From Clostridia bacterium (GTDB lineage Bacteria > Bacillota > Clostridia > Christensenellales > CAG-314), in the NCBI GenBank assembly GCA_036654455.1, contig JAVVRZ010000002.1:1-64000 (forward strand): a stretch of 64,000 bases of DNA, in the 5' to 3' direction. A model generated the notes under the pieces. It was not told the DNA's origin, did not search any database, and saw only the letters and a program-made list of their open reading frames with translations. Shown in pieces: positions 10,930-35,882 of the stretch. The position numbers and the translations under genes were made by a program. The first letter of the stretch is position 1, and each line of letters starts with the position of its first letter.

Positions 10930-11784
10930 TTAAAATATCATCCATTTAATTATAGGCAGAAAACCTCTTCCTAGCGACATATCTCTAATTAAAAATACCA
11001 TAGTAAAGAATATAGCGATAACAAGCGTTCCCACCGCATCACGCCACGAAAGACGCATTTTCTGCATTTTTGTTCGTTTAGTCGAACCCTCATAACAACG
11101 AGAGTCCATAGCCAAAGCCGTTTCGCCAGCCCTGCGGAAAGAAGAAATTAGTAGAGGTATAAGTATAGGCACAAAAGCGCCGGCTCGTTTGAAAATATTG
11201 CCGGTATCAAAGTTAGCGCCTCTTGCCTTTTGAGCACGAATAATGCGGTCGGTTTCTTCAATTAAGGTAGGTATAAAGGCAAGCGCAAGCGACATAATTA
11301 AGGCTAATTCGTGTACAGGCGCTTTTATAAGCGTTAGCGGATAGAGCAAGCTCTCTATGCCGTGAGTAAGTTCAACCGGCGTTGTAGTAAGCGTAAGCAA
11401 ACTTGCGCCTAACACTAAAAAGATAAGTCTAAGCATCATATAGCCGGCAAAAATTAAACCCGTATCGTAAATTTGAAATATCCACCAATCGACAAGCAAC
11501 TTTGAAGTTTCGCTAGGCGAAGTAAAAAAAACATTGAGGATACTTGTAAAGATTACAATAAACATTATGCCTTTAATACTTTTTAGCACGCTTGAAAGCG
11601 GAACTCTTGAAAAAGCTACCGCAATCAACAAAAATACAAGAATAATGCCAAAGGCAAAAAAACTTGTGGCAAAAAAGATACCTATTAAATAAAAAATATT
11701 TAATAGAATTTTTATTCTTGCGTCCATCTTATGAACAAACGACGTTGTCGGGTAATATTGTCCTAGCGTTACGTCGTTAAGCAT
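10930..11784 (-). CDS. ecfT: ECF transporter transmembrane component EcfT
   Basis: This membrane scaffold couples the two EcfA ATPases to interchangeable vitamin- or metal-binding S components. The 284-aa product has hydrophobic segments near residues 28-65, 70-90, 108-135 and 245-265, and the two cytoplasmic coupling motifs of the family: ARG in RAQKARGA (about 188-195) and the related SRCYEG segment (about 227-232). It overlaps ecfA2 by 8 bp. This shared module should serve the S components at 26848 and 33352. Confidence 0.94.
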   Translation of the reverse strand: MLNDVTLGQYYPTTSFVHKMDARIKILLNIFYLIGIFFATSFFAFGIILVFLLIAVAFSRVPLSSVLKSIKGIMFIVIFTSILNVFFTSPSETSKLLVDWWIFQIYDTGLIFAGYMMLRLIFLVLGASLLTLTTTPVELTHGIESLLYPLTLIKAPVHELALIMSLALAFIPTLIEETDRIIRAQKARGANFDTGNIFKRAGAFVPILIPLLISSFRRAGETALAMDSRCYEGSTKRTKMQKMRLSWRDAVGTLVIAIFFTMVFLIRDMSLGRGFLPIIKWMIF

Positions 11785-27426: not shown

Positions 27427-27498
27427 AAAAAATCCCCCTTTATGCAAAGGAAGACCGTAGAAATACTTACGCAATACTTAAAGTATGCGTTTATTATC

Positions 27499-27594
27499 GC
27501 AACGGACGCAATACAGTACCGCAAGAGCTTGGCTCTTTTCGTTGCTAGACGACTTCCCATTCATAGCACACTTAACGCACTGTATCTACTTTGC
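27499..27594 (-). ncRNA. Tetrahydrofolate (THF) riboswitch
   Basis: On the minus strand the segment carries the conserved THF riboswitch pieces in order: AGTAGAT, GCGTTAAGTGTG, ATGAATGGGA, GTCGTC, AACGAA, GCGGTACTG and GCGTCCG, with the outer stem closing GCAAAG...GTTGC. A hairpin in the expression region pairs UCCUUU with AAAGGGGGA, which includes the ribosome binding site of the folT-like gene. Binding of reduced folate would thus be expected to lower translation of the transporter. Family membership is from sequence recognition; regulation direction is from the known class. Confidence 0.9.
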
Positions 27595-27600
27595 ATATTT

Positions 27601-30593: not shown

Positions 30594-32554
30594 TTAGTCT
30601 TTTTCTCTAACCTTTTTTGTAATTTTGATAATTGTTCTCTCAATATTATGGCTCTTTCAAAGTCAAGCTGTCCTGCCGATAAACGCATAGCCGCTTGAAC
30701 TCGCTCGATTTCTAGTTTAATATCAATCGGGGTCAAATTAATGTCGACTTTTCTAATACTTATAGTATTCTCTACATTATGCACAATAGTTTTTGGAGTT
30801 ATGCCATATTTAGTATTATAATCTTTTTGAATTGCCCTTCTGCGATTTGTCTCGTCGATAGCTCTACGCATACTGCCGGTGATATTGTCGGCGTACATAA
30901 TAACGTGACCTTTTACATTTCTTGCCGACCTACCGATAGTTTGTATTAAAGCGCTTTCGCTACGCAAAAAACCTTCTTTGTCGGCGTCTAAAATAGCTAC
31001 TAGCTCGACTTGTGGCAAGTCTAGCCCTTCTCTAAGCAAATTTATGCCCACAAGACAGTCAAAGTCGCCATTTTTTAATCCGCTAAGTATTTGTATGCGT
31101 TCCAACGTGTCTATTTCACTGTGCATATATTTGACGGCTATTCCCCGTTCGCCTAAGTATTTGCTAAGCGACTCAGCCATTTTTTTAGTAAGCGTAGTTA
31201 CAAGAACACGACCTTTGTCGGCGACAACCTTTTTAATATTTGCAATTAGGTGGTCGATTTGCCCTTGTGTCTTGACGACTTCAATCGGGGGGTCGATTAG
31301 CCCGGTTGGACGTATAATTTGTTCGACTAATTGGTCGGCTCGGCTTAGCTCGTATTCGTTAGGAGTTGCCGACATATAGATAACTTGTCCTATTCTCTTG
31401 TCGAATTCGTCATAGGTAAGCGGTCTATTGTCGTAAGCGCTCTTCATTCTAAAACCATAGCCTACAAGATTTTCTTTTCTTGCTCGGTCGCCATTATACA
31501 TACCTCTAATTTGAGGTAGGGTGATATGGCTCTCGTCGACTATGGTAATAAAGTCGTCGCCGAAATAATCTATTAAGGTGTATGACGGCTGACCTGCTTT
31601 TCTTCCGTCAAAATAACGAGAATAATTCTCAATACCGCTACAAGTATTGAGTTCGTTGAGCATTTCTAAGTCGTAATTTGTGCGTTGAACAAGCCTAGTT
31701 GCTTCCATAAGCTTGCCTTGCTGTTTAAGTTCTTCTACCTCGATTGCTAGGTCAGCTCTTATTTGAGCGATAGCCTCTTGTTTGTCGCTCACGGTATAAT
31801 GAGTAGCGGGAAAAATTGCAACGTGATTTAATTCGGCAAGTTTTGCTCCGCTTACGGCATTGCATTGACTAATTCTCTCAATTATATCGCCAAAAAACTC
31901 AATTCTTATCGACTTATCCATAGACGAACTAGGAAAAACTTCAATGATATCTCCCCTTACTCTAAAAACGCCACGTGCAAATTCGTAGTCGTTGCGCATA
32001 TACGCAAGTTCGATAAGCCGTTTAATCATATCTTCACGATTAAATTCTTGGCTAGGTCTAAGCGACAGAGCCGACTTGTAGTATTGTTCGGGAGCGCCTA
32101 GACCATAAATACAAGAAACGCTAGCTACTACGATAGTATCTGTGCGTTCGGCTAGGCTACAAGTAGCGGAGTGTCTAAGCATATCTATTTCGTCGTTTAT
32201 ATCAACTTCTTTTTCGATATATAAGTCCTTGTTAGGCATATACGACTCGGGCATATAGTAGTCGTAGTATGAAACAAAAAATTCAACTCTGTTATTGGGG
32301 AAAAACTCTCTTAACTCGTTGCATAACTGCGCAGCAAGGGTCTTGTTATGGCATATAACAAGAGCTGGACGGTTTGCCTTAGCGATTACCGAAGCTACGG
32401 TAAAGGTCTTGCCACTACCCGTTACGCCCCTTAAAACCTGATAACGCAGTCCGTCGGCTATTCCCTGCGAAAGCTTTTCGATGGCTTGCGGTTGGTCTCC
32501 GCAAGGTGAAAAAGCCGAGCGCAATTCGAAATTTCTTTTTTCTATTTCTCGCAT
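30590..32554 (-). CDS. uvrB: UvrABC excinuclease subunit B
   Basis: DEAD-type helicase-like subunit that verifies damage and recruits UvrC. The 654-aa product has Walker [13 protein letters not shown] (near 40), the beta-hairpin [10 protein letters not shown] (near 93), DESH box (near 338), helicase motifs with QTIGRSARN (near 540), and the C-terminal UVR motif (about 620-652) that contacts UvrA and UvrC. It overlaps coaX by 13 bp upstream and uvrA by 4 bp downstream. Confidence 0.98.
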
Positions 32555-33321
32555 GGCGTATTTAATTTATACAAAATATTTAGTCCTTCAAGCGACAATT
32601 CACGGTCAACATAGTCGTGTAAATTAAATTTATCGGTTACAAGTTGAGATAGTCCGCCGGTAAAGATAATTTTAGCGTCCTTTGCGTTTAATTCTTTCTT
32701 AATTTCTTCAAGCAAAAACTTAGTTTGCCCGATTGCGCCGTAAATAATACCCGATTGAATTGCCTTTCTGGTTGTATTCTCGATTACGTTAGGGGTAACT
32801 ACAAGTTCTACCCTTGGAAGCTGAGCCGTATGAGAACATAGAGCTTCAAGCGTAGTTTTTATTCCCGCCGTGATACAACCGCCGACAAATTCCTTCTTGC
32901 TGTTTACGGCGTTATAAGTCGTAGCCGTACCAAAATCTACTAGAATAAAGGGAGCGCCATATTTTTTTAAGGCGGCTACGCAATTTACGATTCGGTCGCT
33001 ACCTAGCTCCTTAGGCGATTCGTATTTAATATTAAGTCCGGTTTTTATGCCTGCCGAAACAGTAATTAATTTAAAACCAAAATAATATTCGATAGCGTGA
33101 AAAAGCGAATAGTTAAGTTGAGGTATTACCGAGGACATTATTCCCCCTGTAATTTTGTGTTCGTCAATATCGTTACTGCGGAAGAGTTGTTTGATTATAG
33201 CTATTGTTTCGTCCGAAGTACGCCTTACGTCTGTGCCTATCTTCCAACTGCCGACAAGTTCGTCTCCCGTAAATAGCCCCAACTTAATATTAGTGTTGCC
33301 TACGTCTAAGGTTAGTATCAT
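32542..33321 (-). CDS. coaX: Type III pantothenate kinase
   Basis: It phosphorylates pantothenate, the first committed step of coenzyme A synthesis; type III enzymes are not feedback-inhibited by CoA. The 259-aa product has the phosphate loop DVGNTNIKLGLF (6-17), the GSDRIVN motif near 107 and the VDFGTATTYN substrate/metal motif near 128. It follows the S component at 33352 by 30 nt and overlaps uvrB. The arrangement couples a probable vitamin-uptake protein to the kinase that traps pantothenate. Confidence 0.95.
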   Translation of the reverse strand: MILTLDVGNTNIKLGLFTGDELVGSWKIGTDVRRTSDETIAIIKQLFRSNDIDEHKITGGIMSSVIPQLNYSLFHAIEYYFGFKLITVSAGIKTGLNIKYESPKELGSDRIVNCVAALKKYGAPFILVDFGTATTYNAVNSKKEFVGGCITAGIKTTLEALCSHTAQLPRVELVVTPNVIENTTRKAIQSGIIYGAIGQTKFLLEEIKKELNAKDAKIIFTGGLSQLVTDKFNLHDYVDRELSLEGLNILYKLNTPCEK

Positions 33322-33351: not shown

Positions 33352-33969
33352 TTATTCTTCTATTTTTGCGACTCTACCTTCAATACCTAGATGCAAAGCT
33401 ACCCTTGTTCTTAGCACGAGTATAGGAACAAATATAAGTGAAATTAAGTATTCGGGTAAAATATTGGTAAAAATTACTATTTTTATAGTTGTAAATAGCG
33501 CAGTATATTCTTCGCCCATATAGAGTTTTATTCCATTTAAAGCCAACAAATATAAAACTGTGTTAATACATAAACCTATTAACGTGCCAAGCACCAAAGA
33601 AATAACTTGTTTGACAGTTTGATTATTGACATCTTTTAAAATAATTAAAAACAACTTGTAAACTGCAAATGCGCCTATGCCTACGAATAATCTAGGGACA
33701 ATGTAAAGTAAAGGGGCAAAATAGATTGGAACGGCGACTGCGTTAAAAATTATTCCTTTGATTAAGCTTGCAACGCCAAAGAACAAACCCGAAAAGAAAC
33801 CTATTAGCCAGTCATTCTTAATGAAACAAAAACTAAATGTAATGAGTAAAACACAAGCTGCGGTTGAAATTGGCAAAGCCAAACTAATTAGCCTATCTAA
33901 CATCATTGCCACAAAGATTGCCGCAAACATAATGCCATAAAGCGCAATGTAGTAAGTTTTATTTTTCAT
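33352..33969 (-). CDS. ECF-type S component, possibly for pantothenate
   Basis: A 205-aa polytopic membrane protein with about five to six membrane segments (starting at 7-27, 32-52, 55-75, 85-110, 122-145, 160-185). The N-terminal helix with small residues (IALYGIMFAAIFVAMML) and size fit an ECF S component, which would use the EcfA1-EcfA2-EcfT module at 10930-13455. It is the first gene before coaX, so pantothenate is the most economical substrate guess (compare PanT), but the sequence itself does not prove it. The leader at 33970-34060 has alternative pairings. The ribosome binding site is AAGGAA. Confidence 0.65.
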   Translation of the reverse strand: MKNKTYYIALYGIMFAAIFVAMMLDRLISLALPISTAACVLLITFSFCFIKNDWLIGFFSGLFFGVASLIKGIIFNAVAVPIYFAPLLYIVPRLFVGIGAFAVYKLFLIILKDVNNQTVKQVISLVLGTLIGLCINTVLYLLALNGIKLYMGEEYTALFTTIKIVIFTNILPEYLISLIFVPILVLRTRVALHLGIEGRVAKIEE

Positions 33970-33979
33970 TTTTTCCTTA

Positions 33980-34060
33980 AATTACGGCTTGAAATATACC
34001 GCATACTGTTTATTTACTCAAACAGTCAAACTTTAAGATACCGTTAGTTAAATACGGTTC
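33980..34060 (-). promoter_or_regulatory. Structured leader with mutually exclusive helices (candidate riboswitch)
   Basis: On the minus strand ACCGTA (34058-34053) can pair with the nearby ACGGT (34044-34040) or with TGCGGT (34003-33998). TGCGGT can in turn pair with GCCGTA (33988-33983) next to the ribosome binding site. An independent CTGTTT/AAACAG helix (34025-34020 and 34011-34006) sits between. It matches none of the riboswitch consensus sequences I know (TPP, FMN, preQ1-I, THF). Confidence 0.45.
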
Positions 34061-34064
34061 GCTT

Positions 34065-34071
34065 ACATTAT
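34065..34071 (-). promoter_or_regulatory. Probable -10 box for the S component-coaX-uvrB-uvrA unit
   Basis: A perfect TATAAT is present on the minus strand near 34071-34066 with GTTACA about 17 bp upstream. It would start the transcript just before the structured leader. Confidence 0.5.
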
Positions 34072-34161
34072 ACCATAAAGCTTAAAATTTGTAACAAAAT
34101 TTAACCCCAAACCATAGAGTAAATTAGACATTCCTATGTCAATCTTTATTGGAGGTTATGT

Positions 34162-34703: not shown

Positions 34704-35882
34704 ATGAAAACAGTCGGGACAATTAGCATAGGCGTTAAAGCGCCAATAATCAAGCGTGGCGACGATTTAGTAAAGATAGTAACAAGTAGCGTACTGCAAG
34801 CCGAGCAAGAACTCGCCTTGCCCTTACTTGATAACGACATAGTCGCCGTAACCGAAGCGGTAGTCGCTCGTTCGCAAAACAACTACGCAACAATCGACCA
34901 AATTGCAAGCGATATAGCTAGCAAAACCAACGGCGGAGTCGTAGGACTACTTAACCCCATACTTTCAAGAAATCGTTTTTCTCTAATTCTTAAAGCAATT
35001 TCAAAAGCGTGTCAAAAAGTTATTATTCAGCTCACCTATCCTTGCGACGAAGTCGGCAATCCTTTGTTTGCAAATTCGCAAGAAGTTCTTGTAAATTCTA
35101 ACGTCAACCCTTATTTTGATAGTTTTACCTACGAACAATTCGTAGATACTTTCGGCAAACCTTGCCACCCTTTTACCAAAGTCGACTATTTAGAGTATTA
35201 TAAGTCGATTTGCCCTAATTGCGAAATTATTCTTAGCAACCGTAGCGATAACTTGCTTAAATATACAAACACTATTATAGTAGCCGAAATTCACTCTCGG
35301 CAACACACCAAAAAGCGCTTGCAAAGCTTGGGCGCTAAGGTTATTTGTCTTGACGAAATATTGACTTCTAGCGTAGACGGTAGCGGATTTAACAGTCAAT
35401 TTGGCTTGCTTGGCAGTAATCTTGCAACCCAAACAAGCATAAAACTTTTTCCTAACAACGCGCAATTATTTGTCGACCAACTAGCTAGTTCGCTTAAAAC
35501 TGCAACAAACAAAAATATTCAAGTAATGGTTTACGGCGACGGAGCTTTTAAAGACCCTGTCGGCGGTATTTGGGAATTAGCAGACCCAGTAACTAGCCCT
35601 GCATACACAAGTAACCTTTGCGGTAACCCTAACGAGCTAAAATTAAAGTATCTTGCCGACACTACGCTTAAAGATTATTCGGGGCAAGAAGCAGTTGAAC
35701 GCATGCAAGATATTATTAAGAATAAGAGTAAAGAAAACGACGCCTTTAATACACAGGGTACGACACCTCGTAGGTATATCGATTTGCTTGCAAGTTTAGC
35801 CGATTTAACTAGCGGTAGCGGTGACAAGGGTACGCCCATAATACTTATTAAAAATTACTTCAACAACTATGCGGATAAATAA
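34704..35882 (+). CDS. Coenzyme F420-0:L-glutamate ligase-like protein
   Basis: Related to CofE, which adds L-glutamate to F420-0 with GTP. The 392-aa product has the family features in the N-terminal half (IKRGDDLVKIV near 18-28, DNDIVAVTEAVVARSQN near 43-59) and PVGGIWELADP with GNPNELKLKYLAD in the C-terminal part. It is longer than archaeal CofE (about 250 aa). No other F420 gene is in the window, and F420 is not expected in Clostridia, so the acceptor is probably a different molecule. Likely operon with the next gene (46-nt gap). Confidence 0.72.
   Translation: MKTVGTISIGVKAPIIKRGDDLVKIVTSSVLQAEQELALPLLDNDIVAVTEAVVARSQNNYATIDQIASDIASKTNGGVVGLLNPILSRNRFSLILKAISKACQKVIIQLTYPCDEVGNPLFANSQEVLVNSNVNPYFDSFTYEQFVDTFGKPCHPFTKVDYLEYYKSICPNCEIILSNRSDNLLKYTNTIIVAEIHSRQHTKKRLQSLGAKVICLDEILTSSVDGSGFNSQFGLLGSNLATQTSIKLFPNNAQLFVDQLASSLKTATNKNIQVMVYGDGAFKDPVGGIWELADPVTSPAYTSNLCGNPNELKLKYLADTTLKDYSGQEAVERMQDIIKNKSKENDAFNTQGTTPRRYIDLLASLADLTSGSGDKGTPIILIKNYFNNYADK

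Follow-up and report, generated by a model that had tools for sequence, protein, structure and literature searches.

What kind of RNA precedes a presumed pantothenate uptake operon in a Clostridia genome, and how might it govern the genes behind it? In the window, that is, the whole 64-kb stretch of DNA analysed here, a leader on the minus strand lies directly upstream of a gene for a membrane S component of an ECF transporter, which is followed by coaX and then by uvrB (Table 1). The initial annotation took this leader for a switch-like RNA starting just after a clear TATAAT, with three complementary segments that pair in mutually exclusive combinations, and suggested that it might sense pantothenate or CoA as a member of a class not yet established. 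The TATAAT is present, and transcription is predicted to start around 34060, at the foot of the first hairpin.

Table 1. Features of the leader and its operon, in window coordinates
Feature	Position	Strand	Basis or remark
-10 element TATAAT	34067..34072	(-)	read directly; relatives carry TATAAT-like hexamers at this position
H1, first pan stem-loop, GAACCGUAUUUAACUAACGGUAUC	34037..34060	(-)	within the R2 match 33967-34063
H1 bulged A's	34053 and 34039	(-)	window register by hand; columns invariant in relatives
H2, middle hairpin, ACUGUUU-loop-AAACAGU	34005..34026	(-)	lineage-specific spacer helix
H3, second pan stem-loop, AUGCGGUAUAUUUCAAGCCGUAAU	33981..34004	(-)	window aligned by R2
H3 bulged A's	33997 and 33983	(-)	window bulge register read by hand
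Shine-Dalgarno AAGGA	33974..33978	(-)	read directly
ECF transporter S component, PanT-like, membrane, 205 aa	33352..33969	(-)	family profile A4; ATG at 33969
coaX, type III pantothenate kinase	32542..33321	(-)	PF03309, 4e-65; conserved beside the S component
EcfT of an ECF module	11068..11742	(-)	PF02361, 1.9e-42, sole match in the genome

EcfT, encoded in the same window, is available to the S component. Divergent from the leader, on the plus strand (34704-35882), lies a gene for an F420_ligase-family protein (PF01996) that scores below the NCBIfam CofE cut-offs; a gene of this family also adjoins the same operon in the relative L028. Elsewhere in the window, a tetrahydrofolate riboswitch (RF01831, 73.5 bits) occupies minus-strand positions 27498-27595, downstream of uvrA.

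A three-hairpin leader conserved among relatives

Read directly from the minus strand of the window, ACCGTA...ACGGT forms a local hairpin (H1), ACTGTTT and AAACAGT form a middle helix of 7 bp (H2), and TGCGGT...GCCGTA forms a second hairpin (H3) beside the AAGGA Shine-Dalgarno sequence. Folded alone, this leader is unremarkable: its minimum free energy is -18.5 kcal/mol (z = -1.58), and 12 of 200 shuffled sequences fold equally well. In the alignment to the covariance model R2 described below, the loop-closing pairs of the window hairpins are imperfect. Helices in the single sequence are within chance expectation, and the case for a structured RNA therefore depends on the relatives.

Homologues of the S component occur in 44 of 61 related genomes. 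A scan of the genome contigs gave no match with the single window protein as query and did give matches with the family alignment. Where records of this family carry a name, they are metagenome assemblies of Clostridia, often from animal gut (goat, sheep, yak and bins labelled "Lapin"), and one bears the name Candidatus Limihabitans. In nearly every family locus, the S component is followed by coaX and then uvrB. The leaders at the same place are strikingly alike, and all three hairpins are common to 27 relatives: H1 reads GGUCGUAUCC...GGAACGAUAC, H2 reads UAUCUUUU...AAAAGAUA, and H3 reads UCGUACC...GGACGA, followed by GGAG and the start codon.

Two alignments carry the evidence for pairing. 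The first (A2) comprises 19 leaders, mostly of one genus, aligned without structural information; 97.6% of its cells are paired compared to 92.6% in shuffles, with 22 two-sided changes compared to 7, and none of 500 shuffles matches either the cells paired or the covariation score. The second (A3) adds more distant leaders to reach 27, with the window excluded. Here, 98.4% of cells are paired and two-sided changes occur at 17 of 24 pairs, again matched by 0 of 500 shuffles. The pairing percentages of A3 are biased upward because it was fitted to the structure of a model, whereas the swaps in A2 are independent of such fitting. By helix, A3 has two-sided changes at 5 of the 9 pairs of H1 and at all 8 pairs of H3, with 98.2% of cells paired in H2 and 99.5% in H3. 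The four bulged A's (columns 11, 30, 100 and 138) are invariant in all 27 relatives. By comparison among relatives, then, the leader is a three-hairpin structure far beyond chance.

A covariance model built from A3 (R2), which includes neither the window sequence nor any canonical pan sequence, finds the leader in the 64-kb window at 32.4 bits (E 3e-4), the next match scoring 10.6 bits; in the 1.37-Mb genome, it is the sole match at E up to 10. Such a model was one of the checks that the initial annotation had proposed, and the covariation it looked for is present in the hairpins. An earlier model built mostly from one genus (R1) missed the window leader under default filters and scored it at 20.5 bits without them, a discrepancy resolved by R2. 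Across 396 genomes of the order, every R1 match falls in the S-component family, before the PanT-like gene or its truncated start. One instance of the latter is a partial duplication, in which a second complete leader is followed by the first S-component codons only (L066:1430-1600, minus strand, genome G011). In another locus (L008:1392-1494), the leader seems to retain the second stem-loop alone. A third (L029:1240-1500) carries an insertion of about 150 nt inside the H2 region, seemingly with inverted-repeat ends, and H1 and H3 are intact on both sides of it, a hint that H2 is a spacer.

Relationship to the pan motif

The pan motif, in the account given of it by Weinberg et al. (2010; PMC2864571), is a stem interrupted by a pair of highly conserved bulged A's; it mostly occurs as two copies in tandem, lies upstream of panB, panC and aspartate decarboxylase genes and has an architecture suggestive of a dimeric protein site. 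Its Rfam model, RF01749, matches the leader of one relative (L005) end to end at 30.5 bits. Searched against 41 family genomes, it gives 10 matches at E<=1, of which 7 are the leaders described here; in three genomes (G014, G001 and G030) the match falls elsewhere, and the one inspected, in G014, looked like chance. On family leaders, the scores range from 20 to 33 bits, and the best (32.9) remains below the gathering score of 36.2, as do all matches in the 41 genomes, this cut-off being the score threshold of a curated model and not a structural feature. The window leader itself has no RF01749 match even at E 10, and its Rfam matches at E<=10 are chance matches only. Neither the window leader nor those at the loci of ten relatives gave a credible match to any other Rfam family.

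The search works in the other direction as well. R2 matches canonical pan RNAs of distant Bacillota in register at about 15 of 47 loci; the individual scores are modest, and the support comes from position and register. Stems with two conserved bulged A's are found in all 27 relatives and, by hand reading, in the window, and both the window and all 27 leaders of A3 have two of them in tandem, namely H1 and H3. One trait of the motif is missing: downstream there is no operon of panB, panC or aspartate decarboxylase genes, the leader instead preceding the PanT-like S component and coaX. Given the reciprocal matches, their position and their register, which indicate common ancestry, we class the leader as a divergent pan RNA that falls outside the curated RF01749 family. 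The notion of a class not established thus gives way to a relative of a motif described in 2010 (PMC2864571). H2 is an addition of this lineage, as the RF01749 consensus has an unpaired linker there.

Would a pan RNA be at home before such genes? Across the phylum, pan matches occur in 164 of 398 genomes. Among 50 canonical loci read, whose genes were assigned by Pfam on representatives and otherwise by recognisable sequence starts, most precede panB, panC or a gene for a DUF2520 reductase-like protein. In others, the RNA precedes BioY with a PanT-like S component and coaX (L102, L114 and L117), birA with the same kind of S component (L081), or an OPT transporter with a Fumble-type (type II) pantothenate kinase (L104 and L107), which is possibly a further system for uptake of pantothenate or a precursor. 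Two more (L111 and L113) have a transporter of the bile-acid-symporter family (SBF), followed by panC. These transporter and kinase loci include canonical pan RNAs scoring above the RF01749 cut-off; as canonical pan is already tied to uptake and kinase genes, the arrangement in the window is coherent.

The S component itself fits this setting. Its family profile (A4) matches only two chains in the PDB at E up to 10, 4RFS_S (3e-13) and 6ZG3_C (4e-6), and both entries are solved PanT structures (PMC7755397). The relationship is distant in sequence, however, and the window protein alone reaches only E 0.026 against the Pfam family ECF_trnsprt. Within the family, panC (pantoate ligase) was found in 0 of 37 genomes searched and panB (hydroxymethyltransferase) in 0 of 41, so the lineage probably depends on pantothenate uptake. 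From this lack of detectable panB and panC, the homology to PanT and the linkage to coaX, the S component is predicted to carry pantothenate, which lends substance to the pantothenate link first drawn from coaX.

Proposed control of translation and the competing explanations

In 26 of 27 relatives, a Shine-Dalgarno-like run starts 1 base after the last H3 pair, and in the remaining one it starts 2 bases after; the start codon follows 9-13 bases later in the leaders of these 27 relatives. In the leaders of the window's family, H3 and the start codon are nowhere separated by a terminator. What look like terminators in some of these leaders are mostly hairpins lying beyond the leader, or H1 running into a stretch rich in U. 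Canonical copies differ in this respect, as 45 of 50 loci (L067-L117) have an intrinsic terminator within about 100 nt 3' of the pan RNA compared to 2 of 50 when shuffled. On average, the terminator's 5' arm pairs more strongly with the final strand of pan than shuffled sequence does (mean -12.3 kcal/mol, and -9.1 in shuffles), pointing to transcription attenuation as the usual mechanism of canonical pan and suggesting, short of proof, that a formed and bound second stem-loop leaves the terminator free.

On this basis, the leader is probably a tandem pan RNA of divergent sequence, and the operon whose translation it probably controls serves pantothenate salvage, with a PanT-like S component followed by coaX. 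The spacer hairpin H2 lies between two stem-loops that carry a pair of bulged A's apiece, and H3 ends beside the Shine-Dalgarno sequence. Once a factor signalling that pantothenate or CoA is sufficient had bound the stem-loops, the ribosome would be kept off the leader, and uptake would fall. Because the Shine-Dalgarno sequence lies beside H3 and not inside the helix, occlusion would require that the candidate factor be bound. In other Bacillota pan RNAs, the same bound state would favour the downstream terminator. That the leader regulates at all, with this polarity and in response to this signal, we infer from these features. For this factor, a protein is a likelier candidate than a small molecule, and it would probably be dimeric, as suggested by Weinberg et al. 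CoaX was considered for this role: coaX is present in 59 of the 60 genomes that have pan or its variant, but also in 18 of the 19 that lack a match, so co-occurrence is uninformative on CoaX as the binder. Pan is not known to have a binding protein.

The competing explanation that survives best is direct sensing by the RNA of pantothenate, 4'-phosphopantothenate, CoA or acetyl-CoA, where a ligand bound across both bulged-A stem-loops would stabilise H3 and thereby block the ribosome at the adjacent Shine-Dalgarno sequence. In favour of such a riboswitch, the pan core is strictly conserved, as are all four bulged A's, and pan is associated with several unrelated kinds of pantothenate genes across the phylum. 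We nevertheless consider it rather unlikely, as two small, similar hairpins joined by a variable linker that tolerates the large insertion in L029 look more like repeated protein sites, and the discussion of pan by Weinberg et al. (2010; PMC2864571) took the same protein-site view. Likewise improbable, and slightly more so, is the combined reading in which a pantothenate-auxotrophic lineage moved pan from biosynthesis to uptake and from transcription attenuation to control of the ribosome-binding site, and in which the RNA also senses pantothenate or CoA directly. Were this true, pan would be a novel class of riboswitch that works through two expression platforms.

Two further explanations deserve little credence. 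A helix between the Shine-Dalgarno region and the strand just 3' of H1 (CUUAAA with UUUAAG) could hide the ribosome-binding site and act as the switch, and it does appear in the minimum-energy fold of the window and in the relative L002. Over 28 leaders, however, 198 of 200 shuffles pair at least as strongly as the real sequences, which contradicts conservation of this helix; in the window by itself, it could still act. It is just as hard to credit that the leader is non-regulatory, its stem-loops merely stabilising the 5' end of the mRNA. H1 does start at the predicted transcription start, but the exact conservation of the bulges, the tandem layout, the fixed distance to the Shine-Dalgarno sequence and the homology to pan RNAs that precede terminators all argue otherwise. 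Finally, the originally proposed switch, in which the 5' strand of H1 pairs either locally or with the 5' strand of H3 so that H3 hides or frees the ribosome-binding site, has the necessary complementary segments in the window yet is scarcely believable, because none of the 27 relatives has the full cross-pairing in any of 7 registers, whereas local H1 is complete in 27 and H3 in 26; the local hairpins and middle helix of that proposal stand, and H1 and H3 coexist instead of excluding one another.

Significance and comparison with known systems

The RNA class itself is known and the leader is a divergent version of it; what appears to be new is the target, namely uptake together with the kinase, and the expression platform, with H3 abutting the Shine-Dalgarno sequence. 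In the open-licence literature, no description of pan upstream of PanT-coaX was found. As far as the searchable literature shows, the reader of the pan motif has not been named since 2010. A natural pan variant from genomes in which no synthesis of pantothenate is detectable uncouples the sensor from the genes of biosynthesis. A protein binder, if pan has one, ought to be retained even in family genomes as small as these (1.0-2.4 Mb), which narrows the search. The window leader would serve as a compact translational test construct. In addition, a pan-type leader supports assigning this very divergent family of S components to PanT.

LicT/SacY RAT and PyrR sites are protein-controlled hairpin attenuators built from small, conserved hairpins with bulges or internal loops. 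The likeness to them lies in small conserved hairpins with bulges, set at a decision point between termination and readthrough; the window leader departs from them in that no terminator is involved. Also among the closest known systems is the pan motif RF01749. Both have tandem stem-loops with two bulged A's each at equal spacing, both are tied to pantothenate genes, their models match reciprocally, and the GUAUC...GAAC core is shared by hairpin 1 of most relatives. The window's family differs in scoring below the Rfam cut-off, in the extra hairpin H2 in its linker, in having a PanT-like S component and coaX downstream in place of panB/C/D, and in adjoining the Shine-Dalgarno sequence without the terminator typical of canonical copies. 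Under the favoured reading, the polarity would be kept, with the bound state being off, and the expression platform would be different, the window's family acting on ribosome access.
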